Assembly (NCBI RefSeq): GCF_020009625.1
Contig: NZ_JAIHLP010000002.1
Location: 62,001 to 126,000, forward strand
Direction of reading: 5' to 3'
From: Leifsonia poae
GTDB taxonomy: Bacteria > Actinomycetota > Actinomycetes > Actinomycetales > Microbacteriaceae
DNA length: 64,000 nt
The notes beneath the pieces were generated by a model, which made no database searches, was not told the origin of the DNA, and saw only the letters and a list, made by a program, of their open reading frames with translations. Shown in pieces: positions 36,107 to 52,213 of the stretch; position 1 is the stretch's first letter, and each line of letters starts with the position of its first letter. A program made the position numbers and the translations under genes.

Positions 36107-36141
36107 GTCCGCTATTCAGCGCCCTTCGAAAGGTTTTCCCC

Positions 36142-37230
36142 GTGGAGCTTGCTCTTCCTGCTTGGTTCGAGATCGGGTCGTTCATCGTCCTTCTCCTGAT
36201 TCTCGCGTTCGACCTGTTGATCGTGTTCAAGCGGCCGCACATCCCGAGCCCCAAGGAGTCGACACTGTGGGTGTCGTTCTATGTGGCCCTGGCGCTGGTG
36301 TTCGCCCTGCTGATGTTCCTGATCGGGGATGCGGAGCACGCCGGGCAGTTCCTTGCCGGCTGGCTCACCGAGTACAGCCTCAGCATCGACAATCTGTTCG
36401 TGTTCGTGATCATCATGAGCCGGTTCGCGGTGCCGAAGAAGTACCAGCAGGAAGTGCTGATGGTCGGCATCATCATCGCGCTGGTGCTGCGGGGCGTCTT
36501 CATCATCCTCGGAGCGCAGCTGATCGCCAGCTTCAGCTGGATCTTCTACATTTTCGGAGCGTTCCTGCTCTACACCGCGATCCATCAGGCCCTCAGCAAG
36601 CACGACGACAGCGAAGGCCAAGAAGACAGCGCCTTCATCCGTTTCCTGCGCACCCGGCTCAAGGTGTCGAACCAGTTCGAGGGGTTCAAGCTCCGGACAT
36701 TGGTGGACGGCAATCGCATGTTCACCCCGCTGATCATCGTCTTTCTGGCGCTCGGCACCACCGACCTGCTCTTCGCTCTCGACTCGATTCCCGCGATCTT
36801 CGGAATCACCCAGAGCCCGTTCATCGTCTTCGCCGCGAACGTGTTCGCGTTGATGGGACTGCGGCAGCTGTACTTCCTGCTCGGCCACCTTCTCGACAAG
36901 CTCGAGTACCTCAAATACGGGATCGCGTTCATCCTCGCGTTCATCGGTGTGAAGCTCGTCTTCCACGCGATGCACGAGAACGAGCTGCCCTTCATCAACG
37001 GGGGTGAGCACATCAGCTGGGCGCCCGACATCGGCACGCTGACGTCGCTCGTGGTGATCATCGCGGCCATGGCTGTCGCTACGATTGCAAGTCTGGTGAA
37101 GTTGAAGCTCAGCGGCACCAGCGTCGCCGCGGCCATCCACGGTGACGGCCCGGACGACGCGGACGACTCGGATGAGACCGGATCGACGCCGGCTCCGGCC
37201 CGCACCACTCGGGAGGAATCCGGTCCATGA
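36142..37230 (+). CDS. TerC-family membrane protein, probable Mn2+ exporter
   Basis: 362 residues from a GTG at 36142 with CGAAAGG 8 bases upstream. About nine helices. TerC signatures are SLSIDNLFVFVIIMSRF and FALDSIPAIFGITQSPFIVFAANVFALMGLRQLYF, with the conserved acidic residues (IDN, LDS) that bind the metal. TerC proteins under yybP-ykoY riboswitches (Alx, YkoY) export manganese. The C-terminal tail is acidic and cytoplasmic (DGPDDADDSDETG). Its stop overlaps the start of the PP2C phosphatase gene (ATGA, 37227-37230). Confidence 0.9.
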   Translation: MELALPAWFEIGSFIVLLLILAFDLLIVFKRPHIPSPKESTLWVSFYVALALVFALLMFLIGDAEHAGQFLAGWLTEYSLSIDNLFVFVIIMSRFAVPKKYQQEVLMVGIIIALVLRGVFIILGAQLIASFSWIFYIFGAFLLYTAIHQALSKHDDSEGQEDSAFIRFLRTRLKVSNQFEGFKLRTLVDGNRMFTPLIIVFLALGTTDLLFALDSIPAIFGITQSPFIVFAANVFALMGLRQLYFLLGHLLDKLEYLKYGIAFILAFIGVKLVFHAMHENELPFINGGEHISWAPDIGTLTSLVVIIAAMAVATIASLVKLKLSGTSVAAAIHGDGPDDADDSDETGSTPAPARTTREESGP

Positions 37231-38039
37231 CGTCAGCCGTCGACGTGAGCGTGCGCAGCGATGTCGGGGTGGTGCGCTCGGTCAACGAAGACAGCATGCT
37301 GGCCGTCGACCCGGTGTTCGTCGTGGCCGACGGGATGGGCGGTCACGCCCGCGGCGACGCCGCGAGCCAGGCGGCCGTGGCGACGCTCGCCCGAGTGCTC
37401 CCCGCGGGCGCCCGGCCGACACCGGATGAGGTGATCGCCGCGATCGACGAGGCGAACACGGCAGTGCGTGCGCTCTCGGGCGCTGAGGAGTCTGGTATCG
37501 CCGTCGCCGGCACCACGCTCACCGGGGTGGTGCGCGTGCGCGTCCCCGACAACGGTGAGCAGTGGATGGTCGTGAACGTCGGCGACTCCCGGGTCTACCG
37601 GTGGAACGGACGGGAGCTCGACCAGCTGACCGTGGACCATTCGGCCGTGCAGGAGCTGGTGGATGCTGGCTTGATCACGGTGGCTCAGGCCGCCGTGCAT
37701 CCCGAGCGGAACGTGATCACTCGAGCGCTCGGGGCCGAAGACCTGGTCGACACCGATGTGCTGCTCGTGGAACCGCGTGGCCGTCAGACTTTCCTCATCT
37801 GCTCGGACGGTCTCACGAAGGAGCTCGACGACACCGAGATCGCGCGCATCCTCGCCGACACACGCGGCGCGTATGCCGCGGATGCGCTCGTCGAGGCTGC
37901 AATCGAGGCCGGCGGACGCGACAACGTGACGGTGGTCGTGGTTGAATCGGTGACCGGGGAGGCCGACTCGGCTGCCGAAGACACCCGCGACCGGGTCGAG
38001 GAGACCGGGTCGATCGAAGACACCAGACCGAGAGGGTAG
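37227..38039 (+). CDS. PP2C-type Ser/Thr protein phosphatase
   Basis: 270 residues, the cytoplasmic catalytic domain only (PstP-type enzymes often have a membrane helix; none here). All metal-binding motifs are present: RSVNEDS, VFVVADGMGGHARGD, VNVGDSRVY, LICSDGLT and GRDNVTVVVV. It should remove phosphate from Ser/Thr in an Mn2+/Mg2+-dependent reaction, reversing the kinase encoded two genes downstream. Its start overlaps the end of the TerC gene, so it is probably under the same Mn2+ riboswitch. The last 30 residues are acidic and disordered. Confidence 0.92.
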   Translation: MTSAVDVSVRSDVGVVRSVNEDSMLAVDPVFVVADGMGGHARGDAASQAAVATLARVLPAGARPTPDEVIAAIDEANTAVRALSGAEESGIAVAGTTLTGVVRVRVPDNGEQWMVVNVGDSRVYRWNGRELDQLTVDHSAVQELVDAGLITVAQAAVHPERNVITRALGAEDLVDTDVLLVEPRGRQTFLICSDGLTKELDDTEIARILADTRGAYAADALVEAAIEAGGRDNVTVVVVESVTGEADSAAEDTRDRVEETGSIEDTRPRG

Positions 38040-38050
38040 GTTCGAACGCC

Positions 38051-39280
38051 GTGTTCGAGGTTCAGCAGGCCGCCTCTGGGGAGTGGACGGTGGTCGTGTC
38101 GGGCCGCCGCGTGCTGCTCGTCGAAGCTCCCGAACAGGTGGATCGGATCGGGTCGTACCGACGTGCCCTCGCCGACGGTTTCGCCGCCGCGCTCGAAGCG
38201 CTGGCCGTCGACGGTTTCGCTCGCACGCCGGCGTTCGCCCTGGCGGAGACGGGGGATGGGCAGGTTCTGCTCGCGGTCCGCGGTATCGTGACCGCCACCC
38301 TCACGGTCGACGGAACGGAGCGGATCGTCGACGCCGCCGGGGTGTCAACCTGGCTCGAACAGCAGGTCGCCGGTGTGAGCGCTCTGCGACTGGCGGTGCC
38401 CGGGCACGACTCGCTTCTCGCGCCGCTTCCGCTTTGCGACGGTGCGGTATGGGCCACCACCGTGGCGTGGCCGGCGGCGGCGCAGCCAGAGCGTGCGCCG
38501 CAGAACGGGGCAGCGCCGCGACGGGCGCCGATCACCGCACCGATCGTCGTCGAGGCGCAGCCGCCTGCGGAAGCGGAAGCGCCCGCAGAGGCGGAGCCGC
38601 CTGCCGTGATCCCGATCGCGCAGGCGACGATCGCCGAGGCGACGATCGCCGAGGCGACGATCGCCGCCCCGGCCGAGGCTGCCGGCTACGACCACCTTTT
38701 CGGGGCGACACTCATGCGCAGCGTGGAAGACGCGGCCGTTCGACCCGAGACGGACGACGTCGACGCGCCTGCCCGAATCGACATCCCGGGGTTCATCACC
38801 GACTCGGCTCCGCCGCCCGCGACGGAACGCGAAGGCGATCACGACGGTATGACCGTCTTCAGCGGCAGTTTCAGCGAGCGCCGCGATCGCGGGGGAGCCG
38901 ACCAGCCGGCCCCGATGGTCGCACCGGTGGCTGCCGCGCCGCGCTTCTTCGTCGATCTCTTCGACGGGCGCCGCGAATATCTGGTTCCGCCGATCGTCGT
39001 CGGGCGGTCGCCGGTCGCCTCCAGCACGTCACGCGGGCCGGTTCCGCGCCCGATCACCGTCACGAGCGACGAGCAGGACATCTCCCGCAGCCACGCCACC
39101 ATCGCGGTCGAGGGGGACAGCGTCGTCGTCACCGACCTGCACTCGCGCAACGGCACGGTGATCGTGTTGCCGGGGAAGTCGCCGCAGAAGCTGCGGCAGG
39201 GAGAGCCGACGACAGTGATCGCCGGAACGGTCGTCGACCTCGGCAGCGGCATCACGCTCACCGTCGGGCAGGACGCATGA
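38051..39280 (+). CDS. FHA-domain protein with acidic/Ala-Pro-rich linker
   Basis: 409 residues. The N-terminal 130 residues form a globular domain of unknown family (GRRVLLVEAPEQVDRIGSYRRALADG). Then comes a low-complexity linker (about 155-290), rich in Ala, Glu and Pro with an ATIAE repeat. A C-terminal FHA domain (about 297-405) has VVGRSPV, ISRSHATI and LHSRNGT, the phosphothreonine-binding residues. It could bind phosphorylated partners of the kinase encoded next; the Thr-containing linker could itself be phosphorylated. TAGGTT (38037-38042) ends 8 bases before the GTG. Its stop overlaps the kinase start (ATGA). Confidence 0.88.
   Translation: MFEVQQAASGEWTVVVSGRRVLLVEAPEQVDRIGSYRRALADGFAAALEALAVDGFARTPAFALAETGDGQVLLAVRGIVTATLTVDGTERIVDAAGVSTWLEQQVAGVSALRLAVPGHDSLLAPLPLCDGAVWATTVAWPAAAQPERAPQNGAAPRRAPITAPIVVEAQPPAEAEAPAEAEPPAVIPIAQATIAEATIAEATIAAPAEAAGYDHLFGATLMRSVEDAAVRPETDDVDAPARIDIPGFITDSAPPPATEREGDHDGMTVFSGSFSERRDRGGADQPAPMVAPVAAAPRFFVDLFDGRREYLVPPIVVGRSPVASSTSRGPVPRPITVTSDEQDISRSHATIAVEGDSVVVTDLHSRNGTVIVLPGKSPQKLRQGEPTTVIAGTVVDLGSGITLTVGQDA
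38624..38666 (+). repeat. 15-bp tandem repeat in the FHA gene
   Basis: Two full copies and one partial copy of GCGACGATCGCCGAG, encoding ATIAE-ATIAE-ATIA in the linker of the FHA protein. Copy number could vary between strains by slippage. Confidence 0.8.
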
Positions 39281-40923
39281 GGAGACTCGCCTCGACACCG
39301 CCGGAGCTGCCGGGCCTCCGGTTCATCCGACTGCTCGGGTCGGGCGGGTTCTCCGATGTGTTCCTGTACGAGCAGCAGCTGCCGAAACGGAGCGTCGCCG
39401 TCAAGGTGCTCCTCACCGACAGTGTGGACGACGCGGCTCGGGAACATTTCGTGGCCGAGGCGAACCTGATGGCGCAGCTGTCTGCGCACCCGTACATCGT
39501 GACGATCCACCACGCCGACATCGCGGCCGACGGTCGGCCGTATCTGGTGATGGAGTACTGCTCGGGAGCCTCGCTCGGCGACCGATTCAAGCGGGAACGG
39601 TTCAGCGCCGAGGATGCACTTCGCACCGGGGTGCGGCTGTCGAGCGCGGTGGCGACGGCGCACAGCGTCGGAATCCTGCACCGCGACATCAAGCCGGCGA
39701 ACGTACTGACGACCGACTTCGGCTGGCCGGCGCTCACCGATTTCGGGATCGCGTCGACGCTCGAAGAGCTTCCCGTGCACACCGCGTCACTGAGCGATCT
39801 GAGGGGCGGTGTCGTCGACACGGGCACCAGCGGGAGCCGCTCGGTCGGGCTCAGCGTTCCCTGGTCGCCTCCTGAGATGTTCGGCGACGACCCGCAGCCG
39901 GATGTGCGCAGCGATGTCTTCTCGCTTGCCGCGACCATCCACACGCTTCTCGCCGGGCGTTCGCCATTCGAAGTTCCCGGTCGCTCCAACGGCACGCTCG
40001 ACCTGATCGGCCGTATCGAGCGCGGGATGATCACGCCGATCGACCGAGATGACCTGCCGCGGTCCCTCGTGTCCGCGGTGCAGAAGGGGATGGCCACCCG
40101 TCGGGAGGACCGGTTCGCGACGGCCGTCGACTTCGCGCGGGCCCTGCAGCGCGTCGAACTCGAACTCGGGTTCGCGCCGACGAGCATCGACGTGCCGAAC
40201 CTGCGTGTCGTCGATGAACGTCCGGTGGCGCCGTCGGCGGACGAGACGCGGGTCCGATCGGTCGCCACGATCGATGCCCAGGGCGTCGGCAAGCCGCCTG
40301 CCGCTCGGCGGTCGGCTGCCACTCCGGCCGCCGATACGCCGGCCGTCCCGGCGGATGCTGAGCCCACCCGTATCCGGGGATCTCTTCCGTCGGTCGATCC
40401 TGATTCGACGCCGGCGGTTCCGATCGAGAGCACGATCGTCCGGCCGCGATCGTCGTCGGCGAAGGCACACCCCGACGCGCCCGGCCAGGCGCCCGCCGTC
40501 GCACCGCCCCGCCGTTCCCGCTGGCTCCTTCCCACGATCGCGGTCGCGGCGGTGCTCGTGGTGGCCGGTGGCATCCTGGCGGCTGTACTGGTGCCGAGCA
40601 CAGGGCCGGCGGCGGGGCACTCGGGTCGGCCGGGGTCGGCCGGGGACGGCACCGTCGCGGTGACGGTCGTGCCCGCACCGACCCTCGTGTCGGCCACCCG
40701 CGCACCCGACGGCAGCTCCGCGACGATCGTCTGGAGGACCGAGAAGCCGGTCGAAGGCGATCAGTACCAGTGGCGGCGCGAGGGAACGACCGACGCGCCG
40801 ACTGTCACGGGTGAGCCGCGGGCGCAGCTGACCGGGCTCACGGCCGGTGTCGGCGCCTGCATCGAGGTGGTCACGGTGCGCTCCGGCCGTACCTCGGCGC
40901 CATTGAAGGCGTGCTCGCCGTGA
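39277..40923 (+). CDS. Membrane Ser/Thr protein kinase with extracellular Fn3-like domain
   Basis: 548 residues. Kinase domain (about 14-290): GSGGFSDVF loop, K43 in VAVKV, catalytic HRDIKPANV (D137), DFG at 155-157, SPPEMF. A Pro/Ala/Thr-rich linker (about 300-412) is followed by one helix (WLLPTIAVAAVLVVAGGILAAV, about 415-438) and an outer domain with an Fn3-like fold (TLVSATRAPDGSSATIVWR ... ACIEVVTVRSG) that could sense a wall or protein ligand. Overlaps the FHA gene (ATGA) and the HTH gene (GTGA). Probable targets are the neighbouring FHA proteins; the PP2C enzyme would reverse it. Confidence 0.92.
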   Translation: MRRLASTPPELPGLRFIRLLGSGGFSDVFLYEQQLPKRSVAVKVLLTDSVDDAAREHFVAEANLMAQLSAHPYIVTIHHADIAADGRPYLVMEYCSGASLGDRFKRERFSAEDALRTGVRLSSAVATAHSVGILHRDIKPANVLTTDFGWPALTDFGIASTLEELPVHTASLSDLRGGVVDTGTSGSRSVGLSVPWSPPEMFGDDPQPDVRSDVFSLAATIHTLLAGRSPFEVPGRSNGTLDLIGRIERGMITPIDRDDLPRSLVSAVQKGMATRREDRFATAVDFARALQRVELELGFAPTSIDVPNLRVVDERPVAPSADETRVRSVATIDAQGVGKPPAARRSAATPAADTPAVPADAEPTRIRGSLPSVDPDSTPAVPIESTIVRPRSSSAKAHPDAPGQAPAVAPPRRSRWLLPTIAVAAVLVVAGGILAAVLVPSTGPAAGHSGRPGSAGDGTVAVTVVPAPTLVSATRAPDGSSATIVWRTEKPVEGDQYQWRREGTTDAPTVTGEPRAQLTGLTAGVGACIEVVTVRSGRTSAPLKACSP

Positions 40924-41639
40924 GGCCGCTGACGATCGACTATTGCGGCGAGCTCTACACCGTCACCGAACCGCAGGAGTTCGGGATCGGTCGCGAGTCG
41001 GACCTCTCGATCGACGACAACCCGTATCTCCACCGCCGGTTCCTCTCGATCTCCAGCGACTTCGGGATGTGGTGGCTGGCGAACGTCGGCACGCTCCTCA
41101 CCGCGACCGTGAGCGATTCGACCGGAACGGTGCAGGCGTGGCTTGCGCCGGGGGCGAAGCTGCCGATCGTCTTCCAGACGATGCACGTGATGTTCAGCGC
41201 GGGCGCGACGACCTACGATTTCACGATCACCAGCGAGGACGACTACTTCAACACGGCGGTGACGGTGAACGACTCCGGCGGGTCGACGACCGTACTTCCG
41301 GTGACCCTCACGACGACCCAACGTCAGCTCATCGTGGCACTGGCCGAGGGAGTGCTCCTGCAATCCGTGCCGGGGAGGGGGACTATCCCCAGCTCGGCGG
41401 AGGCGGCAGCGCGGCTCGGGTGGAGCATGACGACCTTCAACCGCAAGCTCGACAATGTGTGTGACAAGCTGGACAAGCTCGGTGTAGCGGGGCTGCGAGG
41501 CGGCCGGGGCAAGCTCGCCACGAACCGGAGGGCACGTCTCGTGGAGTACGCCGTGACGACGCATCTCGTCGGACTCGACGATGTGGCCGCGCTCGACGAC
41601 GTCTCGGCGCCGGGCGAAGAGGACCCGGCCGGTCCCTGA
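40920..41639 (+). CDS. FHA-like/HTH two-domain protein, putative phospho-responsive regulator
   Basis: 239 residues from a GTG at 40920 overlapping the kinase stop (GTGA), with GAAGG 10 bases upstream. The N-terminal 120 residues look like a diverged FHA domain (EFGIGRESDLSIDDNPYLHRRFLSIS; GR...S is kept, the NG part is not). The C-terminal 110 residues form an HTH (TTQRQLIVALAEGVLL, PSSAEAAARLGWSMTTFNRKLDNV). An FHA plus HTH layout recalls EmbR, a phospho-controlled activator in mycobacteria, although the order of domains differs. It may regulate the giant surface-protein operon that starts 93 bases downstream. It could instead be an adaptor without DNA binding. Confidence 0.7.
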   Translation: MRPLTIDYCGELYTVTEPQEFGIGRESDLSIDDNPYLHRRFLSISSDFGMWWLANVGTLLTATVSDSTGTVQAWLAPGAKLPIVFQTMHVMFSAGATTYDFTITSEDDYFNTAVTVNDSGGSTTVLPVTLTTTQRQLIVALAEGVLLQSVPGRGTIPSSAEAAARLGWSMTTFNRKLDNVCDKLDKLGVAGLRGGRGKLATNRRARLVEYAVTTHLVGLDDVAALDDVSAPGEEDPAGP

Positions 41640-41651
41640 CCGACGCTGCCG

Positions 41652-41669: not shown

Positions 41670-41698
41670 TCCGCCCCCGTATGGGTGTCGTGTTAGCG

Positions 41699-41728
41699 TT
41701 GACAGGCTTTCCGACAGGGGGATATCAG
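41699..41728 (+). promoter_or_regulatory. Promoter of the giant surface protein operon
   Basis: A consensus -35 TTGACA at 41699-41704 is followed, after 16-18 bases, by GATATC/TATCAG (41721-41728) as a -10. The predicted start of transcription falls at or next to the GTG at 41733, so the mRNA may be leaderless. Confidence 0.6.
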
Positions 41729-41732
41729 AGCA

Positions 41733-44700
41733 GTGGGATCAGTGACGGCGTGGATACGCAAACGCAAGACGCTTGCGTCGATCACAGCCTTGGCGGTGGT
41801 GGCCGGTGTTCCCCTCACGATCGCCGTTCTGCACCGCGGATTCCCGGTGAACGCGGTGAACCTCGACACGAGGGATGTGTGGGTCACCAACGGCGAGAAG
41901 CTCCTCGGCGGCCGCCTCAACCACCAGATCAACGAGCTGGATGCAGCCGTGACCGGTGCGAGCGCCGATCTCGATGTTCTGCAGGACGGCAACGCATACT
42001 TCCTCACCGACACGGTGCACGGCACCGTTGATCGCATCGACCCGGCCTTCGTCTCTCTCGGCGGGCGCATCCAGGTGCCGGAACGTTCTGAAGTCGCCTA
42101 TGGCGCCAACACCCTCTCGGTGCTCTCGCCGAGTGGCGAGCTGTGGGTGATCGACGCCTCCGGCCGGCTGGACTTCGACAAGACGAAGACCAAGCCCGTG
42201 GTGAAGGTGGGGCAGGATGCCCGCCTGGCGGTCGCCAAATCGGGCAAGACATTCGTCGTTGCACCGAAGGGCGACCGTCTTTACACGGTCGATCACCCGG
42301 GCGCTGCTCCGTCGACGGCATCCTTCCCGGTGCCCGGTCGGTTCCAGCTCACGGCGGTGGGTGACGAACCCGTCGTGTTCGACAGCCAGGGCAACCGCGT
42401 GATCACAGGCGACGGGAAGACGATCGATCTGCCGGCCACAGGTCTGCGCGTGCAACAGCCTGGGGATGCGGACGCTTCGGTTCTGGTGGCGACCGCATCG
42501 AGCCTGCTGAGTGTTCCGCTCGACGGTGGCAGGGTTGTCGCGCATCCGGCCGGCGCCACGTCGTCGGGCGGCGTGACGACGGTGTCTGCGCCCGTGCGAT
42601 TGGGGTCGTGCTCGTATGGGGCCTGGGCGGGCTCGGCGCGCTACCTGTACGCCTGTGATGGCCAGAAGCCGATCGGCGTCGACATCGACCAGCCCGTTCA
42701 GGGCGACGACCTGGAGTTCCGGGTGAACCACGGCGTCATCGCGCTCAACAATCTGCGCGACGGCAATGCCTGGGTCGTTTCCTCCACGATGCGCCTCGTG
42801 CAGAACTGGGCCCAGCTGAAACCGAACGAGACGACGGTGCAGGGCGACACCGGCGAAGAGAAGCCGGTTCTGCAGTCGTTCGCCGACACGCTCGCCCAGC
42901 GTTCGAAGGTGAATCGTCCCCCGACGGCCGTGAATGACTCGTTCGGGGTGCGTCCCGGGCGCTCGACAGTGCTTCCGGTTCTCACGAACGACACCGATCC
43001 CGATGGCGATGTGCTGACGATCACCGAGACGTCGAGCATTCCCGAGAGTCAGGGAAGCCTCGCCCTCGTCGAGGGCGGTCGTGCAATCCAATTCACGCCG
43101 AACGCCGACCTGAGCGGCACCATCTCGTTCCGCTATTCGATCGACGACGGACGTGGTGGAACGTCGTCGGCGCAGGTGGACGCCACGCTGCGCCAGCCCG
43201 ACCAGAACACGGACCCGGTCGCGAGCCGCACGAGTACCGCGCAGACCGAGGTGGGACAGTCGGTGTCGTACGACGTGCTGAACGACTGGAGCGACCCCGA
43301 CGGCGACGACCTCTCGCTGGTGGGCGCGGCAGCAACGACGGAAGACGATGTGCAGTTCAAGCCGGACGGCGAGATCACCTTTACGAGCAAGACCGGGCAG
43401 ACCGGCTCCAAAGAGGTCAACGTCACGGTCTCGGATGGGCGGAAGAGCACCACGGGCAGCCTGCTCGTCACCGTCAAAGCGGCCGGAACGCTCGACCCGG
43501 TGGCCGTGCCGGACTTCGGTGCGGGATTCACCGGCCAGCCGATCGTGGTGAACCCGCTCGGCAATGACACGTCGCCCTCGGGGGAGCCGCTCACGCTCGT
43601 GGGCGCCAGCCTCGATGGCGACGGCGCGCAGGTGACGACGGATGCGGCGCGTGGCACGGTCACTGTGCTCGGCAATGCTCCGGGCGAGTACTACGTCACC
43701 TACACGCTCGGCGCCGGTCCGAAGTCGACGACCGGTCTGATCCGCGTGAACATCGCTCCGAACGGCACGTCCGATGCGCCGCCGGTCGCGGTGACGGACA
43801 CGGCCTATGTGCGTCCAGGAGAGCCGACCAGTGTGAACGTGCTCGACAACGACGAATCACCCTCCGGGCGTGTGCTCGTCGTTCGTTCGGTCACGGCGGG
43901 CGCCGGCGCCGAGGATCTGAACGTCGAGGTCTTGGACAACGCAGTGGTCAAAGTCACCGCGCCGACCGTGCTCGCCCAGCAGGTGCAGCTCGTCTACACG
44001 GTCTCCGACGGCATCCATGAGGCGAAGGCCGGGATCACGGTCGTGCCGGTCCCTCCGCTGGTGACCCATCAGCCCCCGGTCGCCGTGGAGGATGTCGTCA
44101 CTGTGCGGGCCGGCGATATCGCCAGCGTGCCGGTGATGGACAACGACTCCTCGCCCGACGATGCGCCGTTCACGCTGGATCCCACCCTGCGCGATGCGAG
44201 CACGGCCGGTCCCGGATCGACGGTCTTCGTCAGCGGGAAGCTCGTGCGCTATCAGGCGCCGAAGACCGCCGGGCAGTACAGCGTGGTCTATGGCATCACC
44301 GACAAGGTCGGTCAGAAGGCCCAGGCGACCGTGACCTTCGTGGTGACGGCACCGGACAAGGGCACGAACCGTGCGCCGCAGCCGCAACCCCTGACCATCC
44401 GCGCGTTCGCCGGGTCGGCTGTTCCGGTTGATGTGCCGCTCAACGGCATCGACCCCGACGGCGACTCCGTGACGCTCGACGGTCTCGGCAGCCAGCCCAC
44501 CCTCGGCCGGATCTCGGACAGCTCCAGCAGTTCGTTCACGTACGAGGCTTACCCGAACTCGGCCGGCACCGACACCTTCACGTACCGGGTGAAGGACACC
44601 TACGGCAAGACGGCGACCGGCACGGTCACCATCGGGGTCGTGCCGCGGCCGGCCGCAGTTCAGCCCCCGATCGCGTCGAACGATCCTGTGCAGGTGAAGC

Positions 44701-47006
44701 CCGGCCGCACGGTGTCGGTTCCGGTGCTGGACAACGATTCCGATCCGAACGGCTACACGATCGCGTTGCAGAAGAAGCTCCTGGCCGTGGATGCCGGGCT
44801 CAAGGCATCCGTTCACGGCAAGGTGGTGCTCGTCACCGCCCCGAAGACGGAGGGCGCCTACGTCGTGCGATACCAGATCGCAAACGGCCAGGGCGGGGTG
44901 GCGAGTGCATTCATCCAGGTGACGGTGACGCCCGACGCCAAGGAGCAGCATCCCACCGCGATCGACCACGTGCTCGAGCCGGATGCGGTGGCCGCGAAAT
45001 CGTCTGTGACCGTGGACGCCCTGGCCGGGGCTGCCAACCCGAGCGGCCTCGTCGATGATCTGAAGCTCGCTGTGACCGGGTCGAACGCCTCCGCTGCGGA
45101 GGCCGGCACGGATGGCAGGATCACCGTGCATCCCGGCACGCAGCGCCTGGCCATCGCGTACACGGTCACCGATCCGGTGACCGGGCTGAGCGGGGATGCG
45201 TTCGTCGTCGTTCCGCCGAAGGGCGACGCCACCGCACCGCCGCGGATCAGGTCGTCGCTTCCCCAGCAGATCGTGCAGATGGGCGGCTCGAAGAGCTGGA
45301 ACCTGTCTGACATCCTCGACGTTCCCTCCGGCCGTTCCACGAAGCTGACCGGTGCGTCGGGTGTGAGTGCCACGAACAGCGACGGCCGTTCGTCGTTCGG
45401 TGGCGAGCAGACATTGACGTTCACCGCGCCCAAGGACTATCGCGGGCCGGCTGCCGTCACCTTCACGGTGAACGATGGACGCGAAGCGGGGCAGTCCAAA
45501 GACCGGATCACGACGCTCGTGCTCCCGATCACGGTGGGCAATCCAGACCAATCGGATGTCGCACCCACCTTCACCGCGCCGAGCGAGAAGATCGAGCCCG
45601 GAGAGAAGCCGCTCACCGTCGATCTGCGTGCCTCGAGCTTCCACCCCAACCCTGCAATCCTCAGCAGGCTCGTCTACAGCGACCCCCGGTGGTCGACCAA
45701 GAACATCTCGGTGTCGCTGAACGGGTCGACGCTCACACTTCAGGCGCCCCTCGGAACGCAGGCGGGGGAGTCGACCGCGGTGACGGTGACGATCAGCTCG
45801 GGCACGCACAGCATCACGGGAACCGTGAACGTGCAGGTCGTGAGCTCCAACCGGCCGGTCGCCTCGCAGAAGAATCCGCCGCAGACCCAGGAGGTGAAGC
45901 GGGGGCAGACGGCGACGCTGACCGGGGCGTCCAGCGATGCAGCGTGGGTCAACCCGTTCCCCGGCCATCCCCTGACGATCACCGATGCGAAGGCGGACAG
46001 CGCCCCCGCTGGGGTCACGGTGACCTTCACCGGCTCCTCGATCTCGGTGAGTGCGGCTTCGGGGGCATCCATCGGCGCCGTGAATGTCGTCTATCACGTC
46101 GAGGATGCGACGAAAGACCCGAAACGCACGGCCGCGGCCATCGGCCAGTACCGGGTGACCGTGCACGACGTTCCGGCCAAACCGGCCGCACCGACCAATG
46201 TGAGGGCCTCGGATGCGCAGGCGACCCTGACCATCGCCGCACCGGCCGACAACGGCAAACCGATAACGAAGTACGAGATCACGGGCGGGCCGAGCACGGT
46301 GACGGCCGCCAGCGTCGGCCAGGTGACGATCGGCGGACTTCGCAACGGCACGGCGTACTCGTTCCAGGTCCGGGCGCTGAACGCGGACGGCTGGAGTGAG
46401 TTCTCGGTGGCATCGGCGGCGGTGGTGCCGTACGGCACCCCGCAGAAGGTCGGCGGACTGAACATCGACGCGGACCAGTACGCACCCGCGACGGTGACCA
46501 TGCGCTGGAGCGCGCTCGCCGATCCGGCCGGAACCGGCGGTGGCTCCGTCACGTATGAGTGGAGCCTGAACAACGGCTCCTGGAACACGACGAGCGGCAC
46601 CAGCGCCCAGGTCGGCAATCAGGGTGTCGGCACGTACTCGTTCAGAGTGCGGGCCAAGAACACCCACAACAACAACTACGGCGAGGTCGCCTCCTCGAAC
46701 AGCGTCAGCGTCGCTAAGAAGCCCGACCCTCAACCGTCGATCGACCTCGCCAAGGGCGCGCTGGAGCCGGGCTACAACCACAGCTACACGTACGACGTCA
46801 CGCTGAACCACTTCGGTGCGAACACGTCGTACGCGATCGGCTTCTACTGCGGCGGGTTGCTCCAGACGCGCTCGGTCAGCACGGACGGGAGCGGTTCGGC
46901 GCATTTCCGCGGGGCCCCCAACGGGCAGGACGCGTGGTGCGGGTTCCCCGGAGCGTACGTGACCGCCGGCGGCGTGCAGAGCAGTGTGCAGGACTGGTCC
47001 AAATAG
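41733..47006 (+). CDS. Giant membrane-anchored surface protein with Ig-like and Fn3 repeats
   Basis: 1757 residues. A basic start (WIRKRK) and one helix (residues 15-33) form a signal anchor. Residues about 40-390 are a beta-rich domain with propeller-like VIDASGRLDFD, TVDHPGAAPS and VITGDGKTIDLP segments. From about 395 to 1480 come roughly eleven Ig-like repeats of about 90-100 residues, each opening with a pattern like PPVAVTDTAYVRPG and VNVLDNDESPSG (Big_9/cadherin-like). One Fn3 domain (about 1482-1570), a second Fn3-like domain to 1665, and a C-terminal domain with two Cys follow. No LPXTG sorting signal. Probably an adhesin or wall-spanning scaffold. Followed 13 bases later by the moxR gene. 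Confidence 0.85.
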   Translation: MGSVTAWIRKRKTLASITALAVVAGVPLTIAVLHRGFPVNAVNLDTRDVWVTNGEKLLGGRLNHQINELDAAVTGASADLDVLQDGNAYFLTDTVHGTVDRIDPAFVSLGGRIQVPERSEVAYGANTLSVLSPSGELWVIDASGRLDFDKTKTKPVVKVGQDARLAVAKSGKTFVVAPKGDRLYTVDHPGAAPSTASFPVPGRFQLTAVGDEPVVFDSQGNRVITGDGKTIDLPATGLRVQQPGDADASVLVATASSLLSVPLDGGRVVAHPAGATSSGGVTTVSAPVRLGSCSYGAWAGSARYLYACDGQKPIGVDIDQPVQGDDLEFRVNHGVIALNNLRDGNAWVVSSTMRLVQNWAQLKPNETTVQGDTGEEKPVLQSFADTLAQRSKVNRPPTAVNDSFGVRPGRSTVLPVLTNDTDPDGDVLTITETSSIPESQGSLALVEGGRAIQFTPNADLSGTISFRYSIDDGRGGTSSAQVDATLRQPDQNTDPVASRTSTAQTEVGQSVSYDVLNDWSDPDGDDLSLVGAAATTEDDVQFKPDGEITFTSKTGQTGSKEVNVTVSDGRKSTTGSLLVTVKAAGTLDPVAVPDFGAGFTGQPIVVNPLGNDTSPSGEPLTLVGASLDGDGAQVTTDAARGTVTVLGNAPGEYYVTYTLGAGPKSTTGLIRVNIAPNGTSDAPPVAVTDTAYVRPGEPTSVNVLDNDESPSGRVLVVRSVTAGAGAEDLNVEVLDNAVVKVTAPTVLAQQVQLVYTVSDGIHEAKAGITVVPVPPLVTHQPPVAVEDVVTVRAGDIASVPVMDNDSSPDDAPFTLDPTLRDASTAGPGSTVFVSGKLVRYQAPKTAGQYSVVYGITDKVGQKAQATVTFVVTAPDKGTNRAPQPQPLTIRAFAGSAVPVDVPLNGIDPDGDSVTLDGLGSQPTLGRISDSSSSSFTYEAYPNSAGTDTFTYRVKDTYGKTATGTVTIGVVPRPAAVQPPIASNDPVQVKPGRTVSVPVLDNDSDPNGYTIALQKKLLAVDAGLKASVHGKVVLVTAPKTEGAYVVRYQIANGQGGVASAFIQVTVTPDAKEQHPTAIDHVLEPDAVAAKSSVTVDALAGAANPSGLVDDLKLAVTGSNASAAEAGTDGRITVHPGTQRLAIAYTVTDPVTGLSGDAFVVVPPKGDATAPPRIRSSLPQQIVQMGGSKSWNLSDILDVPSGRSTKLTGASGVSATNSDGRSSFGGEQTLTFTAPKDYRGPAAVTFTVNDGREAGQSKDRITTLVLPITVGNPDQSDVAPTFTAPSEKIEPGEKPLTVDLRASSFHPNPAILSRLVYSDPRWSTKNISVSLNGSTLTLQAPLGTQAGESTAVTVTISSGTHSITGTVNVQVVSSNRPVASQKNPPQTQEVKRGQTATLTGASSDAAWVNPFPGHPLTITDAKADSAPAGVTVTFTGSSISVSAASGASIGAVNVVYHVEDATKDPKRTAAAIGQYRVTVHDVPAKPAAPTNVRASDAQATLTIAAPADNGKPITKYEITGGPSTVTAASVGQVTIGGLRNGTAYSFQVRALNADGWSEFSVASAAVVPYGTPQKVGGLNIDADQYAPATVTMRWSALADPAGTGGGSVTYEWSLNNGSWNTTSGTSAQVGNQGVGTYSFRVRAKNTHNNNYGEVASSNSVSVAKKPDPQPSIDLAKGALEPGYNHSYTYDVTLNHFGANTSYAIGFYCGGLLQTRSVSTDGSGSAHFRGAPNGQDAWCGFPGAYVTAGGVQSSVQDWSK

Positions 47007-47019
47007 AGATGGGAACACC

Positions 47020-47988
47020 GTGGCAGTAACTCAGGAACAGGCGGACTGGTTCGCCGGTGCCTTCACGCAGCTCGTCGGCAATGTCGACACGGCGATCCTC
47101 GGAAAGGAGCACAGCATCCGGCTCGTCATCACCGCCATGCTCTCGAACGGTCATGTGCTGCTCGAGGATGTGCCAGGAACGGGCAAGACCGTGCTGGCGA
47201 AGGCGCTGGCCAACACGGTGGAAGGTACGCAGTCGCGCATCCAGTTCACCCCCGATCTGCTGCCGTCCGATGTGACCGGCGTCACGATCTACGACCAGAG
47301 CAACGGTCGGTTCGAATTCCACCCCGGACCGATCTTCGCCTCGGTCGTGCTGGCCGACGAGATCAACCGTGCGAGCCCCAAGACCCAGTCGGCGCTGCTC
47401 GAGGTCATGGAAGAAGGCGTCGTGACGGTCGATGGTGTCGGCCATCCCGTCGGCGCACCGTTCATCGTGATCGCGACGCAGAACCCGGTGGAGCAGGCGG
47501 GGACGTATTCGCTGCCCGAGGCGCAGCTCGACCGCTTCCTCATCAAGACATCGCTCGGCTACCCCGACCATGCCACGACGGTCGACCTGCTGCTGGATGC
47601 CTCGAACCGTTCGCGGGCGGCATCGGTGCAGCCGATCATCGCGGCCGAATCCGTGGTGACACTGTCTCAGCTGGCGTCGGAGGTGCACACCGACGCCTCC
47701 GTGATGGGGTACCTCAGCGAGATCGTCACCGCCACACGGGACGACAAGGATTCGGCCCTCGGCGTCAGCATCCGCGGCGCACTCGCCCTGGCCCGCGCGG
47801 CGAAGACCTGGGCGATCTCGTCAGGCCGCACGTATGTGACGCCCGACGACATCCGTGAACTGGCGATTCCCGTGCTCGCCCACCGTGTCATCGTCGACCC
47901 GGAGTCCGAGTTCGCCGGGGTGACCGCGGAGCAGATCGTGGGCCGCGCCGTCGCCGAAGCGAACCCGCCGGCCTATCGGGCCGCCTGA
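47020..47988 (+). CDS. MoxR-family AAA+ ATPase
   Basis: 322 residues from a GTG at 47020. Walker A LLEDVPGTGKTVLAKAL, Walker B VVLADEINRASPKTQSALLEVMEE, sensor 1 IATQNPVEQAGTYSLPEAQLDRFL. MoxR ATPases work as chaperones for assembling or activating protein complexes, usually with a DUF58/VWA-type partner, which is encoded next. The position directly after the giant protein suggests that protein, or the membrane complex, is the client. Confidence 0.93.
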   Translation: MAVTQEQADWFAGAFTQLVGNVDTAILGKEHSIRLVITAMLSNGHVLLEDVPGTGKTVLAKALANTVEGTQSRIQFTPDLLPSDVTGVTIYDQSNGRFEFHPGPIFASVVLADEINRASPKTQSALLEVMEEGVVTVDGVGHPVGAPFIVIATQNPVEQAGTYSLPEAQLDRFLIKTSLGYPDHATTVDLLLDASNRSRAASVQPIIAAESVVTLSQLASEVHTDASVMGYLSEIVTATRDDKDSALGVSIRGALALARAAKTWAISSGRTYVTPDDIRELAIPVLAHRVIVDPESEFAGVTAEQIVGRAVAEANPPAYRAA

Positions 47989-48001
47989 GCGCCTTCCCGC
48001 C

Positions 48002-49366
48002 ATGACCGCACAGACCGCCACCTCCGCTGCGCCCCCGGTTGCCGCGCCCTCAGCCGACGCGACCCCGGCATCCGGCCGTCGACGGCGTCCTCCGGCGCTC
48101 TCGCAGAGCCGTATCGCCGTCGGACAGGTGCGGGATGCTCTCTCCCGCGGTCTCGGCGCCGGGGTGAAAGCGTTCGGTCCCGCCTGGCGGGTCGTGGCGG
48201 GGCGGGTCGGACCGGTGCTGGCGGTCGTCAGCCCACTGGGCTGGATCGCGCTCTCCGGAGCCGTGGTCTCGATCGTGCTCGCGGTCGTGTTCGCCTGGGC
48301 GGAGTTCGGTTTCGTCGCCGCGACACTTCTCGCCGCCTTCCTCATCGCGCTCGCTTTCGTCTTCGGCCGCTCGACCTATGCGGTCGAGATCGAGTTGAAC
48401 CCGAGGCGGGTCGTCGCGGGGGAGCGAGCGCTCGGCAGGATGGAAGTGACCAACACCGGCTCGCGTGCGGTGTTGCCGACCCGTGTCGAGCTGCCGGTCG
48501 GCGCCGGCACGGCGGAGTTCATGATCCCCCGTCTCGCCGCGGGGGCGCAGACCGAGGAGCTCTTCGCTGTTCCGACCGCCCGCCGGGCCCTCATCCTGGC
48601 CGGCCCGGCTCTCTCGGTGCGCGGCGACCAGCTGGGCCTCGTTCGCCGCACGACTGCCTGGACGGGACAGGTCGAGTTGTTCGTGCATCCGCGAACGACA
48701 CGCCTCGTCGCGACCGCGCGCGGTCTGGTGCGCGACCTGGAGGGGCAGACCACCAAAGTCATCACCGACAGCGACCTCGCATTCCACGCGTTGCGCACCT
48801 ATGAGCCCGGGGACGACATCCGCAACGTCCACTGGCGCACCTCGGCGCGCACCGGCCAGCTGATGGTGCGCCAATACCAGGAGACCCGGCGCTCCCAGCT
48901 GCTGCTGGTCTTCGACGCTGAGCGGGCGCATTTCGCCTCGGACGATGAGTTCGAGCTGGGCGTCTCGGTGCTGGCGTCCATCGGCTGCCAAGTGATCCGC
49001 GAAGAGACCGAGATCGACGCCGTCTGGCAGCGCAAGCCATTGCGGGTGGCGACGCCGACGGCCCTGCTCGACGACTCCTGCCGAATCCAGCCGGTCGACG
49101 GGATGCACGCGAGTCTGCGCGACTTCGTCCGCCAGAGCACGCTGCGTCTCGCCTCGCCGAGTCTCGTCGTGCTCGTCGTCGGCTCCGGACTGGGGGCGGC
49201 GGAGCTGCGTGCGGCGGTCACGCTCTTCGGGAACGACACCGAGATCGTCGCGGTGCGGGTCGATGCAGCCGGGGAGCCCAGGCTCAGCCGGCTGGGCGGC
49301 ATGATGCTCGCCACCGTCTCCGAGCTGGGCGAGCTACCCGCACTCCTGAAACGGGCCGGACGGTGA
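48002..49366 (+). CDS. DUF58-domain membrane protein
   Basis: 454 residues. A disordered N-terminus (to about 75) leads to two helices (about 80-120), then a beta domain and the DUF58 signature YEPGDDIRNVHWRTSARTGQLMVRQYQETR (about 265-294), followed by a VWA-like fold (LLLVFDAERAHFASDDEFELGVSVLASIG). DUF58 proteins are the usual partners of MoxR ATPases. Its stop overlaps the start of the transglutaminase-like gene by 4 bases (GTGA), so the two are co-translated. Confidence 0.92.
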   Translation: MTAQTATSAAPPVAAPSADATPASGRRRRPPALSQSRIAVGQVRDALSRGLGAGVKAFGPAWRVVAGRVGPVLAVVSPLGWIALSGAVVSIVLAVVFAWAEFGFVAATLLAAFLIALAFVFGRSTYAVEIELNPRRVVAGERALGRMEVTNTGSRAVLPTRVELPVGAGTAEFMIPRLAAGAQTEELFAVPTARRALILAGPALSVRGDQLGLVRRTTAWTGQVELFVHPRTTRLVATARGLVRDLEGQTTKVITDSDLAFHALRTYEPGDDIRNVHWRTSARTGQLMVRQYQETRRSQLLLVFDAERAHFASDDEFELGVSVLASIGCQVIREETEIDAVWQRKPLRVATPTALLDDSCRIQPVDGMHASLRDFVRQSTLRLASPSLVVLVVGSGLGAAELRAAVTLFGNDTEIVAVRVDAAGEPRLSRLGGMMLATVSELGELPALLKRAGR

Positions 49367-51717
49367 GCGCGACGACGCGTCCGGTCGCCCCCGCGGGGAA
49401 CGGTGCCTCCGCTGTCGACCGACTGCCGGCGACCTCGTGGCTGGATGTCGGAGTCCTTTCCGCGCTCAGCGCGCTGGCCGTGCTGGGATTCGAGCCGGCC
49501 TTCGGGCACTATTCGTTCGCCCTCGCGGCGTTCGGCGGGCTGGTCATCGGCGGCGGTGTCGCGGTGCTCGGCCGGATGCTCCGCCTCTCCGTGCCGATCA
49601 CGGTCGCCCTCGCTCTCGCGGCCTACTTTCTTCTGGGTACACCGCTCGCCATGCCTGGTCAGGCCACCGTCGCTGTGCTGCCGTCGCTTGACAGCCTGTC
49701 CGGGCTGGTCCTCGGCGCGGTGTTCGGCTGGGCGGATGCGGTGACGCTGCAGGCGCCTCTGGAGGCTCCGCCGTATGTGGCCGTCGTTCCCTATTTCGCG
49801 AGCTGGCTCGTGGCGCTGGTGACGGTCTCGCTGGCCGTTCGCTGGCTGCCCGCGGCGCGAACGCGCGGAGTCGCCCGGGCTGCGGTGCTGCTGACCGGCC
49901 CCCTGCTGCTGTTCGTCGCCGGAATCCTTCTCGGCACCCGCGACCCGTACTTCGCCGGAGTGCGCGGCGTTCTCTTCGCCGCCGTCGCGCTGATCTGGCT
50001 CGGCTGGAGGCGGGGGCGCGCCGGAGCGGTGGAGGTCTCCGTCGACGCCGGGCTCCGTCGGCGACGGCTGGTGGGCACCGGTATCGTCGTGATCGGGTCC
50101 GTCGTGGCCGGGGCCTTGGCCGGGTCGGTGCTGACACCGCCGGCGGCCAGCAGATTCGTGCTCCGGCAGGAAGTCACCCCACCCTTCGATCCGCTGGACT
50201 ACCCGAGTCCGCTCGCCGGTTTCCGCCACTATACGAAAGACCTCGAGAAGACGAAGCTCTTCACCGCGGATGGACTGGACTCCGGTCAGCTCGTGCGCCT
50301 GGCGACGATGGACAGCTACGACGGGGTGGTGTGGAGCGTTACGGCTCCCGATGCCGGTTCGACCGCATCCGGGACCTTCCAGCTGCTCGGCAGCACGATC
50401 CCGCGCCCGCCTCTGTTCACGGCGGGCGCGCGTTCGACGGCGAGCATCGTCATCGCCGACTATTCGGATGTCTGGCTGCCGACGATCGGCTACGTCACCG
50501 ACCTCGGTTTCGACGCGTACCGTGGCGACGACCCCGCCGGAACCGTGCGCGTGAACACCGTCACCGGCACAACGGCCGTCACCAGCGGCGTCGGCGACGG
50601 ACTGCGCTACACCCTCTCCGCCACCGCTCAGAAGATCCCCAACGACAAGGCGCTGGCGCGGGTGGCACCGGCCGCCATGACGCTGCCTCCGGTGACCAAC
50701 ATTCCTGACATCGTTTCGGCGAAGGCGGAGGAGTACGCCGGTTCGGCGACGAGCGCCATCCAGAAACTGCGGAATATCGAGCGCTCCCTCAAGACGTTCG
50801 GCTACCTCAGCCATGGGCGGGCGTCGGATCCGGTGCCGTCGCGAGCCGGGGAGGGCGCCGACCGGATGACCGATTTGTTCGCCAAGCAGCCGATGGTCGG
50901 CGATCAGGAGCAGTATGCCGGTGCGTTCGCCCTGATGGCGCGCCGCCTCGGCTATCCGACCCGCATCGTGATGGGGTTCGCCCCCAAGGTCGTGGCCGGG
51001 CAGTCGACGACGGTGACCGGGAATGACGTGACCGCGTGGGATGAAGTGGCTTTCGAGGGCGTCGGCTGGGTTCCGTTCTTCCCCACGCCCACGAAGACGG
51101 ATGCCCCCAAGAATCAGACGACGAAGCCGAAGCTCGAACCGCAGCCGCAAGTTCGTCAGCCACCACCGGCCGACGCGAAACCGCAAGAGCTGCTCACTCC
51201 CGTGAAGACGAAGGACAACGAGCACAAAGATCCGAAAGCCGGCTTCGGCATCCCCGGTTGGGCCTGGGTGGTCTCCGGTGTGATCGGTATCCCGGCCCTG
51301 CTCTACTTCGTGCCGTTGCTCGTCGTGGGAGCCCTCAAACGTCGCCGGCGTCGCCTGCGGCGATCACAGGGGCCGCCCGATCGGCAGGCGGCCGGCGCCT
51401 GGGACGAGCTCACCGACGGTTACGTCGAACTGGGGCTCGCCGTTCCCCGCAACGCGACGCGGCTACAGACCGCCGCGGCCCTCGAACGGCAGACCTCCGA
51501 GCAGAACCTCCGTACGCCAGAAGACGGCCTGACCCCGCTCGCCCGGCGGGTCGACGCAGCCGTGTTCGACGGGAGCACTGTCTCGGAGGGAAGAGTTGTG
51601 GCCGCGTGGACGGGAACGGATGCCGCTTTGGCCGAGGCAACGAGTTCGGCCGGCTGGCTCCGGGCGAGGCTGGCGTCCTTCCGCTACCGGCGCCGCCGTC
51701 GCGACGTGGCCCTATAG
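49363..51717 (+). CDS. TgpA-like membrane protein with a degenerate transglutaminase domain
   Basis: 784 residues. Six or seven N-terminal helices (about 28-265), an outer region (270-630), another helix (about 632-652) and a cytoplasmic tail of about 130 residues: the TgpA layout. The transglutaminase core (about 500-580) is recognisable in GDQEQYAGAFALMARRLG, TAWDEVAFEG and GWVPFFPTP. Active family members have Cys, His and Asp at these places; here they are Q515, T557 and F573. I therefore expect a non-catalytic, possibly peptide-binding role. Overlaps the DUF58 gene; part of the moxR operon. Confidence 0.88.
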   Translation: MSATTRPVAPAGNGASAVDRLPATSWLDVGVLSALSALAVLGFEPAFGHYSFALAAFGGLVIGGGVAVLGRMLRLSVPITVALALAAYFLLGTPLAMPGQATVAVLPSLDSLSGLVLGAVFGWADAVTLQAPLEAPPYVAVVPYFASWLVALVTVSLAVRWLPAARTRGVARAAVLLTGPLLLFVAGILLGTRDPYFAGVRGVLFAAVALIWLGWRRGRAGAVEVSVDAGLRRRRLVGTGIVVIGSVVAGALAGSVLTPPAASRFVLRQEVTPPFDPLDYPSPLAGFRHYTKDLEKTKLFTADGLDSGQLVRLATMDSYDGVVWSVTAPDAGSTASGTFQLLGSTIPRPPLFTAGARSTASIVIADYSDVWLPTIGYVTDLGFDAYRGDDPAGTVRVNTVTGTTAVTSGVGDGLRYTLSATAQKIPNDKALARVAPAAMTLPPVTNIPDIVSAKAEEYAGSATSAIQKLRNIERSLKTFGYLSHGRASDPVPSRAGEGADRMTDLFAKQPMVGDQEQYAGAFALMARRLGYPTRIVMGFAPKVVAGQSTTVTGNDVTAWDEVAFEGVGWVPFFPTPTKTDAPKNQTTKPKLEPQPQVRQPPPADAKPQELLTPVKTKDNEHKDPKAGFGIPGWAWVVSGVIGIPALLYFVPLLVVGALKRRRRRLRRSQGPPDRQAAGAWDELTDGYVELGLAVPRNATRLQTAAALERQTSEQNLRTPEDGLTPLARRVDAAVFDGSTVSEGRVVAAWTGTDAALAEATSSAGWLRARLASFRYRRRRRDVAL

Positions 51718-51724
51718 TGGCCTG

Positions 51725-52213
51725 GTGGACTCGTCCGGCTTCATCGTTCCCCCGCCGAACCTGATCCCGCCGCGCGAAGACACCGGAACCGAGACCAGGC
51801 GGGCGCCTGCGCGCAGCGGCAAGCTTCCCGTCTTCCGGCCTCCGACGGCGCCGGACGTGATGGTCGGAGCCCAGAGCCGGGAACCGCGTTGGCGCCTCGT
51901 ACTGCCGACTGGGCGCTTCATCCCCCTCGATGGGACGGTGCTGGTCGGGCGCAACCCGGTCGGTTTCGGCCCGTGGGGCGAAGCGGAGCTGATCACGGTG
52001 GACGACCCAGCCTCCTCAGTGTCGAAGACCCATGCGGCCTTCGAGCCGTCGTCGGGGTCGGTGCGCGTCACCGATGTGCACTCCACCAACGGGATCGTCG
52101 TCGTGGCCCCGGGTGGCGCAGAGACGGAATTGGTGCCCGGAATCCCCGCGGATGCAGCCAACGGTGCCGTGGTGCGCCTTGGTCGGCTCGTGGTGCGCGT
52201 CGAGCGCGTGTGA
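51725..52213 (+). CDS. Small FHA-domain protein
   Basis: 162 residues. A Pro/Arg-rich N-terminus (about 55 residues) is followed by an FHA domain (about 58-160) with VLVGRNPVGFG, SVSKTHAAFEP and VHSTNGIVV: the Arg, Ser, His and Asn that bind phosphothreonine are all present. It would read phosphorylation by the kinase of this cluster and could bind the DUF58 or TgpA-like tail. TATAGT (51713-51718), inside the end of the previous gene, ends 6 bases before the GTG, so an internal leaderless promoter is likely. Confidence 0.85.
   Translation: MDSSGFIVPPPNLIPPREDTGTETRRAPARSGKLPVFRPPTAPDVMVGAQSREPRWRLVLPTGRFIPLDGTVLVGRNPVGFGPWGEAELITVDDPASSVSKTHAAFEPSSGSVRVTDVHSTNGIVVVAPGGAETELVPGIPADAANGAVVRLGRLVVRVERV

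Follow-up and report, generated by a model that had tools for sequence, protein, structure and literature searches.

Gene cluster of Leifsonia poae and the PFNA operon

We analysed a stretch of 64,000 nucleotides of Leifsonia poae (assembly GCF_020009625.1, contig NZ_JAIHLP010000002.1, positions 62,001 to 126,000 of the forward strand), here called the window. Nine genes at 37227-52213, all on the + strand, form a cluster that is almost certainly a system of the same type as the Bifidobacterium PFNA operon. The set was found in many other actinomycetes, which contradicts its published restriction to Bifidobacterium, and its transglutaminase-like TgpA protein lacked the catalytic cysteine in all 115 cluster loci. 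The set itself was already known from Bifidobacterium. The spread of PFNA beyond bifidobacteria and the cysteine loss of TgpA are new; no report of PFNA outside Bifidobacterium, or of a lost cysteine in the PFNA gene tgm, turned up in a literature search that covered few subscription journals.

A preliminary description made from the sequence alone had read nine genes in one direction with four ATGA or GTGA overlaps. Pfam and NCBIfam domain calls bore out this gene order. Gene calls and the junction sequences confirmed the direction and the overlaps, which are ATGA at the junctions of the preceding TerC-family gene with PP2C and of FHA with the kinase, and GTGA at kinase/FHA-HTH and DUF58/TgpA. 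The features, with the gene letters used below and with HTH standing for helix-turn-helix, are:

37227..38039, + strand: PP2C-type Ser/Thr phosphatase (P; prpC of PFNA), PF13672
38051..39280, + strand: FHA protein 1 (F), FHA domain at the C-terminus, in whose sequence the R, S/H and N-G residues can be seen, PF00498
39277..40923, + strand: membrane Ser/Thr kinase (K; pkb2 of PFNA) with catalytic domain, one transmembrane segment (residue 421) and FN3-like ectodomain, PF00069
40636..40920, + strand: ectodomain of the kinase, a single FN3-like domain with a conserved Cys pair (alignment, profile match to PDB)
40920..41639, + strand: protein of 242 residues with an FHA domain and a C-terminal helical, HTH-like domain (H, FHA-HTH; alignment, AlphaFold model and Foldseek, no Pfam match)
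41733..47006, + strand: giant surface protein (G; fn3 of PFNA), 1757 aa, N-terminal transmembrane segment at residue 14, eight Pfam Big_9 matches and one fn3
41865..42827, + strand: predicted beta-propeller domain of the giant, residues about 45-365 (AlphaFold model, Foldseek)
47020..47988, + strand: MoxR AAA+ ATPase (M; aaa-atp of PFNA), PF07726 and PF17863
48002..49366, + strand: DUF58 membrane protein (D), vWA-like, without a complete metal ion-dependent adhesion site (MIDAS) motif DxSxS, PF01882
49363..51717, + strand: TgpA-like polytopic membrane protein with a transglutaminase-like domain (T; tgm of PFNA), catalytic Cys replaced, PF01841 and weak PF11992
50905..50907, + strand: codon of Q515, at the catalytic-Cys position of the transglutaminase fold (alignment)
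51725..52213, + strand: FHA protein 2 (F), small, start set by the reading frame, PF00498

The 93 bp between the FHA-HTH and giant genes are the sole intergenic gap longer than about 15 bp within the set. The overlaps and short gaps suit co-transcription, and a second transcription unit could begin at the 93-bp gap.

According to the available parts of the Bifidobacterium reports (PMC8430577, PMC6803598, PMC10688814, PMC12607495), the PFNA operon consists of pkb2, fn3, aaa-atp (MoxR), duf58 and tgm, accompanied in some species by prpC, a hypothetical gene and fha; in B. longum the genes are transcribed as an operon, and MoxR is a substrate of the kinase Pkb2. The same parts describe the core gene order as constant (PMC8430577), name the FN3 giant as a possible folding client of MoxR (PMC8430577, PMC10688814), and treat PFNA as found in bifidobacteria alone and as their means of sensing the immune system of the host. 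The preliminary description had known of no described system with this set, a claim that fell because the PFNA operon matches it. All five core genes stand in the window in the same order (K-(H)-G-M-D-T, + strand, with H inserted as an additional gene), and the accessory genes are represented by one PP2C and two FHA genes. The giant is of similar size (1,757 aa against 1,994 aa in B. longum GT15, as given in the text available) with FN3 near the C-terminus. In both systems the kinase has one transmembrane segment and TgpA lacks the cysteine. The window differs in the FHA-HTH gene between kinase and giant, in its two FHA genes, and in having PP2C and FHA1 first. The host differs as well, being Leifsonia-like with two copies of the set in its genome. 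The PFNA giant has two FN3 domains near the C-terminus; in the window giant Pfam calls one fn3 (1486-1561), and weak PKD and Y_Y_Y matches at 1585-1652 hint at a second. The other copy (L036, at G000:C2:3828000-3847999) is diverged; it comprises FHA, PP2C, kinase, giant, MoxR, DUF58 and TgpA, the last 36% identical to that of the window.

The two systems were also connected by direct searches. The window TgpA reached genomes of the Bifidobacterium-type family, here f41, with a best E-value of 5.5e-73. The propeller profile of the giant gave E-values of 2e-95 or lower in 14 listed genomes of this family, five rows of the profile themselves coming from f41. The loci of f41 have the order kinase-giant-MoxR-DUF58-TgpA, with PP2C and FHA following in some. 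In one of them (L139) the TgpA shows 100% identity to a protein of Bifidobacterium gallicum, and among the best 120 of 522 homologues of the B. gallicum protein every one with an organism name was from Bifidobacterium. The Bifidobacterium PFNA operon is a subset of a wider actinomycete set.

Two further known systems resemble part of the cluster. The MoxR-DUF58-TgpA trio of loci of the MoxR proper subfamily, with the TgpA of Pseudomonas as an example, has its three genes in the same order as the window. A mycobacterial moxR operon has been compared with PFNA in a 2025 review (PMC12067865); its order moxR1-DUF58-vWA also places MoxR beside DUF58, and the available part of the review names no giant, kinase or TgpA-like gene of PFNA type there.

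Distribution across actinomycetes

The window TgpA matched 129 of 248 genomes of the same GTDB order (E <= 1e-20). At E <= 1e-3 it matched 101 of 148 genomes within the same class; remote paralogues make up many of these matches. We fetched 120 stretches (L036-L155) of up to 20 kb each, several of which were cut short, and dropped five (L048, L049, L050, L054, L055) as other MoxR-DUF58-TgpA loci. The 115 remaining cluster loci contained TgpA (115), DUF58 (115), MoxR (111), the giant (110), FHA (103), PP2C (85), the kinase (85) and FHA-HTH (36). These loci, like the named ones below, were picked by TgpA similarity, so the sample favours the cluster. Among loci of at least 19 kb, a kinase and/or PP2C gene lay in the fetched stretch in 103 of 105 (kinase in 83, PP2C in 77, both in 57), and an FHA gene in 94 of 105. 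The nine genes form one conserved unit, the phospho-signalling genes lying beside giant-MoxR-DUF58-TgpA in these 103 loci. Independent occurrence of the two halves in most relatives, which the preliminary description had set as its refutation, was not seen. The two exceptions (L056, L058) carry tandem giants, the second of which fills the stretch. Tandem giant genes were also seen in L061, L067, L086 and L100-L102.

A scan of named genomes gave at least 561 loci, and we kept the best 80 (L156-L235). They take in Microbacterium, Arthrobacter, Pseudarthrobacter, Cryobacterium, Herbiconiux, Actinomyces, Propionibacteriaceae and Smaragdicoccus. Within these 80, the giant, MoxR, DUF58, TgpA, FHA and kinase were present in all 51 loci of at least 21 kb; PP2C was found in 47 of the 51, FHA-HTH in 38 and all eight families in 35. 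Two records named Stenotrophomonas maltophilia (L192) and Planococcus (L176) carry actinomycete-type cluster genes and are probably contaminated or wrongly named.

Linkage and gene order

Across the 248 genomes, TgpA and the propeller of the giant occurred together in 122, TgpA alone in 7, the propeller alone in 19 and neither in 100. The odds ratio is 92; the genomes are related, and the Fisher p-value carries no correction for phylogeny. A profile search recovered a TgpA match in 18 of the 19 propeller-only genomes, 16 of them within about 10 kb on the contig of the propeller and two (G217, G249) with the best match on another contig; the single genome left is 73% complete. Among the seven TgpA-only genomes, G273 gave a weak propeller match and G162, G259 and G339 gave none. 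Two incomplete genomes (77% and 67%) had no propeller match either, nor had G167, where the giant is cut by the contig end (L091). FHA-HTH and TgpA could both be placed in 89 genomes: they lay less than 20 kb apart on the same strand in 71, far apart in 7 and on different contigs in 11.

The set is kept together through at least six gene orders. In the letters of the feature list they include PFKH-GMDTF (window, L042), GMDTF-PFKH (L182, L223), K-GMDT-P-F (L144), PFKH-MDT-G (L126), a divergent kinase with GMDT (L045, L046), GMDT-K-P-F (L157) and GMDT-P-F-K-H (L120). Because the swap between the window and L182 breaks the set precisely at the 93-bp gap of the window, there seem to be two modules, a signalling one (PFKH) and a surface one (GMDTF).

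Gene fusions were considered as proof of contact and set aside, since the only open reading frame in the fetched stretches that joined two families was a giant-MoxR frame of 2187 aa in an f41 genome (L146:7881-14441:-). Such a join is hard to reconcile with the membrane and may reflect a frame or assembly problem. In database listings, three proteins (P0266, P0272, P0273) combine DUF58 with a transglutaminase domain.

The TgpA-like protein has lost its catalytic cysteine

The window TgpA has Q515 at the Cys position of the catalytic triad, T557 at the His position and F573 at the Asp position. None of the 115 cluster-locus proteins has the cysteine; D, E, Q, A, S or G stands there instead. It was likewise absent from 240 listed homologues, namely the best 120 of 566 near the window protein (Q 82, E 37, G 1) and the best 120 of 522 near that of B. 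gallicum (S in all 120). In the named loci the position held D in 77, Q in 2, G in 1 and a gap in one of 81, giving no cysteine in 80 readable sequences; the His was kept in 75. The separate trio in the same genome served as a control and has C-H-E, keeping both Cys and His. This trio (L050, G000:C2:124000-140000), which lacks a giant, begins at about 63809 of the window and runs past its end.

Judged from sequence, the PFNA-type TgpA cannot be a classical cysteine-type transglutaminase, because the cysteine is gone. The 'transglutaminase' or 'cysteine protease' of PFNA cannot use a catalytic cysteine, as no cluster relative that was examined has this residue. The preliminary description had not remarked on the loss. 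The motif around the lost residue is strongly conserved (G-D/N-x-E-Q-Y/F-A, then A-W-x-E), and the fold has therefore been kept for something else. The system offers a clear pseudoenzyme within the MoxR-DUF58-TgpA trio, which is widespread and whose function is little known.

Another Cys-less class of TgpA was seen outside the system (L018-L022, L026-L028, L031, L033), with G-T-S/T-E-Q-F and with Leu or Val at the His position. Proteins of this class lie near a kinase gene in two loci (L048, L049).

Active sites and domain anatomy of the other proteins

The enzymes of the cluster appear to have kept their activity. The Walker A and B residues of MoxR are present in all 111 relatives, and the K, D and DFG Asp of the kinase in 83 of 85, the other two having gaps. 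The metal-binding Asp residues of PP2C occupy three columns and are kept there in 78, 80 and 81 of 85 relatives; apart from one Ile, the remaining entries are gaps. A complete D-x-S/T-x-S/T motif (MIDAS, DxSxS type) was found in none of the 115 DUF58 proteins. Three other DUF58 proteins of the Leifsonia genome, compared by eye, also lack the full motif, and its loss was dropped as a special trait of the system for that reason. DUF58 is the only Pfam match of the window protein, with no propeller fused to it.

A transmembrane segment follows the catalytic domain in 80 of 89 kinases and is followed by 92-136 residues in 76 of the 80. These residues form one domain with two Cys near its end in 76 of 77, the window included; the counts take in a few kinases from the dropped loci. 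The Cys pair is invariant in 24 of 24 aligned sequences. A profile of the ectodomain matches FN3-containing PDB chains (best E 5.2e-6), and Pfam fn3 matches it weakly in 3 of 24 sequences, the window copy not among them. A PASTA kinase of the PknB type was ruled out by the single FN3-like ectodomain and by an NCBIfam PASTA-kinase score of 140 against a cut-off of 450.

The AlphaFold model of residues 1-390 of the giant has a mean predicted local distance difference test score (pLDDT) of 88.9 and a predicted template modelling score (pTM) of 0.82. It consists of a helix followed by an all-beta propeller whose ten-residue blocks have pLDDT values of 76-98. The top Foldseek neighbours are propeller proteins, the archaeal S-layer YVTN propeller 1l0q first and BamB among them, with template modelling scores of about 0.3-0.6. 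The propeller is predicted to lie outside the cell, because it is placed after the N-terminal transmembrane segment. Propeller frames of only 435 aa (L152, G205) and 419 aa (G228:C1:44624-45667) were also seen and are perhaps broken genes. The model of the 242-residue FHA-HTH protein has a pLDDT of 75.9 and a pTM of 0.48. Its first half matches FHA domains (best in Foldseek Rv1747 FHA-1, TMt 0.76); its second half is mostly helical and, from sequence and helices, would be a DNA-binding HTH domain.

Proposed mechanism and alternative explanations

What was observed here, namely the genes present and their conserved linkage, the domain anatomy, the lost cysteine and the intact ATPase, kinase and phosphatase residues, leads us to the following proposal. 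The giant would be anchored by its N-terminal membrane helix, with the propeller near the membrane outside the cell and, beyond it, a long Ig-like (Big_9) stalk with FN3 and a cysteine-containing tip at its far end. MoxR, DUF58 and the Cys-less TgpA would form a membrane complex in which the ATPase acts from inside on DUF58 and TgpA, and this complex may be the assembly or remodelling machine of the giant. The dead transglutaminase domain would bind a target, probably the giant or the adjacent cell wall, rather than cleave or cross-link it. The kinase would sense the outside state through its FN3-like ectodomain and phosphorylate cytoplasmic partners, including MoxR; the FHA proteins would read the phosphothreonines, FHA-HTH would pass the signal to transcription, and PP2C would reset it. 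All physical contacts in this scheme, the direction of its signalling, the signal sensed and the action of MoxR on the giant are our inference. The preliminary description had likewise supposed that MoxR-DUF58-TgpA may act on the giant and that kinase and phosphatase would switch it. This mechanism taken alone, in which the giant is the surface part, MoxR-DUF58-TgpA its machine, and kinase, PP2C and FHA proteins the control, is about evenly balanced between right and wrong. We lean slightly towards the combined reading that the cluster is an actinomycete-wide form of PFNA, a unit for envelope sensing, surface-protein assembly and signalling that works in this way. The PFNA set is present in environmental actinomycetes, with more parts, and its basic job is probably shared at the cell envelope. 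Questions about PFNA thus become testable in easily grown soil strains.

Several results weigh against this proposal. In one genome (G256) the giant lies about 0.5 Mb from the MoxR-TgpA locus. In another, a trio whose TgpA carries the motif of PFNA type (GDEEQYA, no Cys; L054, G146:C2:186500-206499) has no giant, kinase, PP2C or FHA match within its 20 kb, which speaks against strict coupling; the same genome also has a full set (L046). FHA-HTH is not core, because it was not found in f41 at E <= 1e-10 and is unlinked in some other genomes. A like-binds-like contact between the FN3 domain of the kinase and those of the giants is a guess, because the two resemble each other only weakly (hhalign probability 15.7%, E 0.0017). 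TgpA might still carry out some other chemistry, because the triad His is kept in 39 of 115 cluster loci, 23 of which also have the Asp. Cysteine loss is also not unique to the PFNA-type system: 13 of 18 control TgpA proteins outside it were Cys-less and 5 had Cys, although the search for these controls (L018-L035) likewise started from a Cys-less query, which biases them towards such proteins.

The strongest competitor is a cell-wall machine, which we consider unlikely. Here MoxR-DUF58-TgpA would act on peptidoglycan or another wall polymer, with the giant as spacer or tether and the kinase sensing the state of the wall as PASTA kinases do. Transglutaminase-like folds usually act on peptides, and kinases that control the wall have similar kinase-phosphatase-FHA sets. 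The membrane setting and the build of the giant, a long repeat protein with one transmembrane segment, fit this as well; the ectodomain of the kinase, however, is FN3-like and has no PASTA repeats. A host-immune sensor, whose FN3 protein and kinase would have arisen to bind cytokines of mammals and communicate with host immunity, is the published Bifidobacterium reading and appears improbable as an account of the whole set. The WSxWS string is a hallmark of cytokine receptors, and a loose motif of this kind occurred in the best-matching fn3 domain of 12 of 13 f41 giants, compared with 16 of 85 elsewhere. For bifidobacteria, the available parts of the reports describe binding of TNF-alpha by an FN3 fragment, induction of PFNA by TNF-alpha, and adhesion (PMC8430577, PMC10688814, PMC12607495). 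The same set, however, is present in Arthrobacter, Pseudarthrobacter, Microbacterium, Cryobacterium, Herbiconiux, Smaragdicoccus and metagenome-assembled genomes of Propionibacteriaceae. Searched anywhere in the giant, plain WSxWS occurred in 28 of 98 outside f41 and in none of 13 inside it, and the looser WS..S in 69 of 98 outside and 12 of 13 inside. Cytokine-receptor-like motifs are therefore not confined to gut bacteria, and their position in the fn3 domain may be more regular in f41. Host sensing is a later use at most and not ancestral, because the taxonomic spread speaks against it.

A MoxR-vWA system of biological conflict, with a beta-propeller as the third part, is very improbable. 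The window MoxR scores above the Pfam bpMoxR cut-off (37.4 bits against 27), and MoxR, a vWA-like partner and a propeller are all there; in the ternary systems described in the available part of PMC7159879, however, the propeller is fused to the vWA protein, whereas in the window it sits on a separate giant behind a transmembrane segment, and the giant and TgpA are constant parts. There is hardly room for a chance or merely phylogenetic neighbourhood of genes that share no function. MoxR-DUF58-TgpA trios without a giant do exist, one of them starting at the end of the window itself; yet the set stays together through the gene orders listed above, with the co-occurrence already given, and conserved linkage in distant relatives rules chance out. 

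Returning to the proposed mechanism, we would extend it as a tentative possibility to an old actinomycete machine for envelope sensing. Its receptor-like kinase, with one FN3 ectodomain, would read the state of the propeller-Ig-FN3 rod through the Cys-less TgpA as receptor, and MoxR, a target of the kinase, would reset or build the complex from inside. The cytokine role in bifidobacteria would then be a late by-product.

Surroundings of the cluster

Scans of the window for promoters and terminators gave nothing above chance, and the sole Rfam match at gathering score was a tRNA at 35745. A TTGACA stands about 17-18 bases ahead of an AT-rich stretch adjoining the GTG start of the giant (41694-41733); this would suit a leaderless transcript, and the promoter scan called none there. 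Among the matches listed for the cluster proteins, the closest others were Leifsonia proteins, at 82% for TgpA and 92% for FHA-HTH, which by protein similarity places the window in a Leifsonia-like member of the Microbacteriaceae. Upstream of the cluster lies one further gene:

36085..37230: TerC-family membrane protein gene, into which the cluster as first delimited (from 36142) also reached

This TerC-family gene adjoins the cluster in the window and in some relatives (L037, L038, L045).

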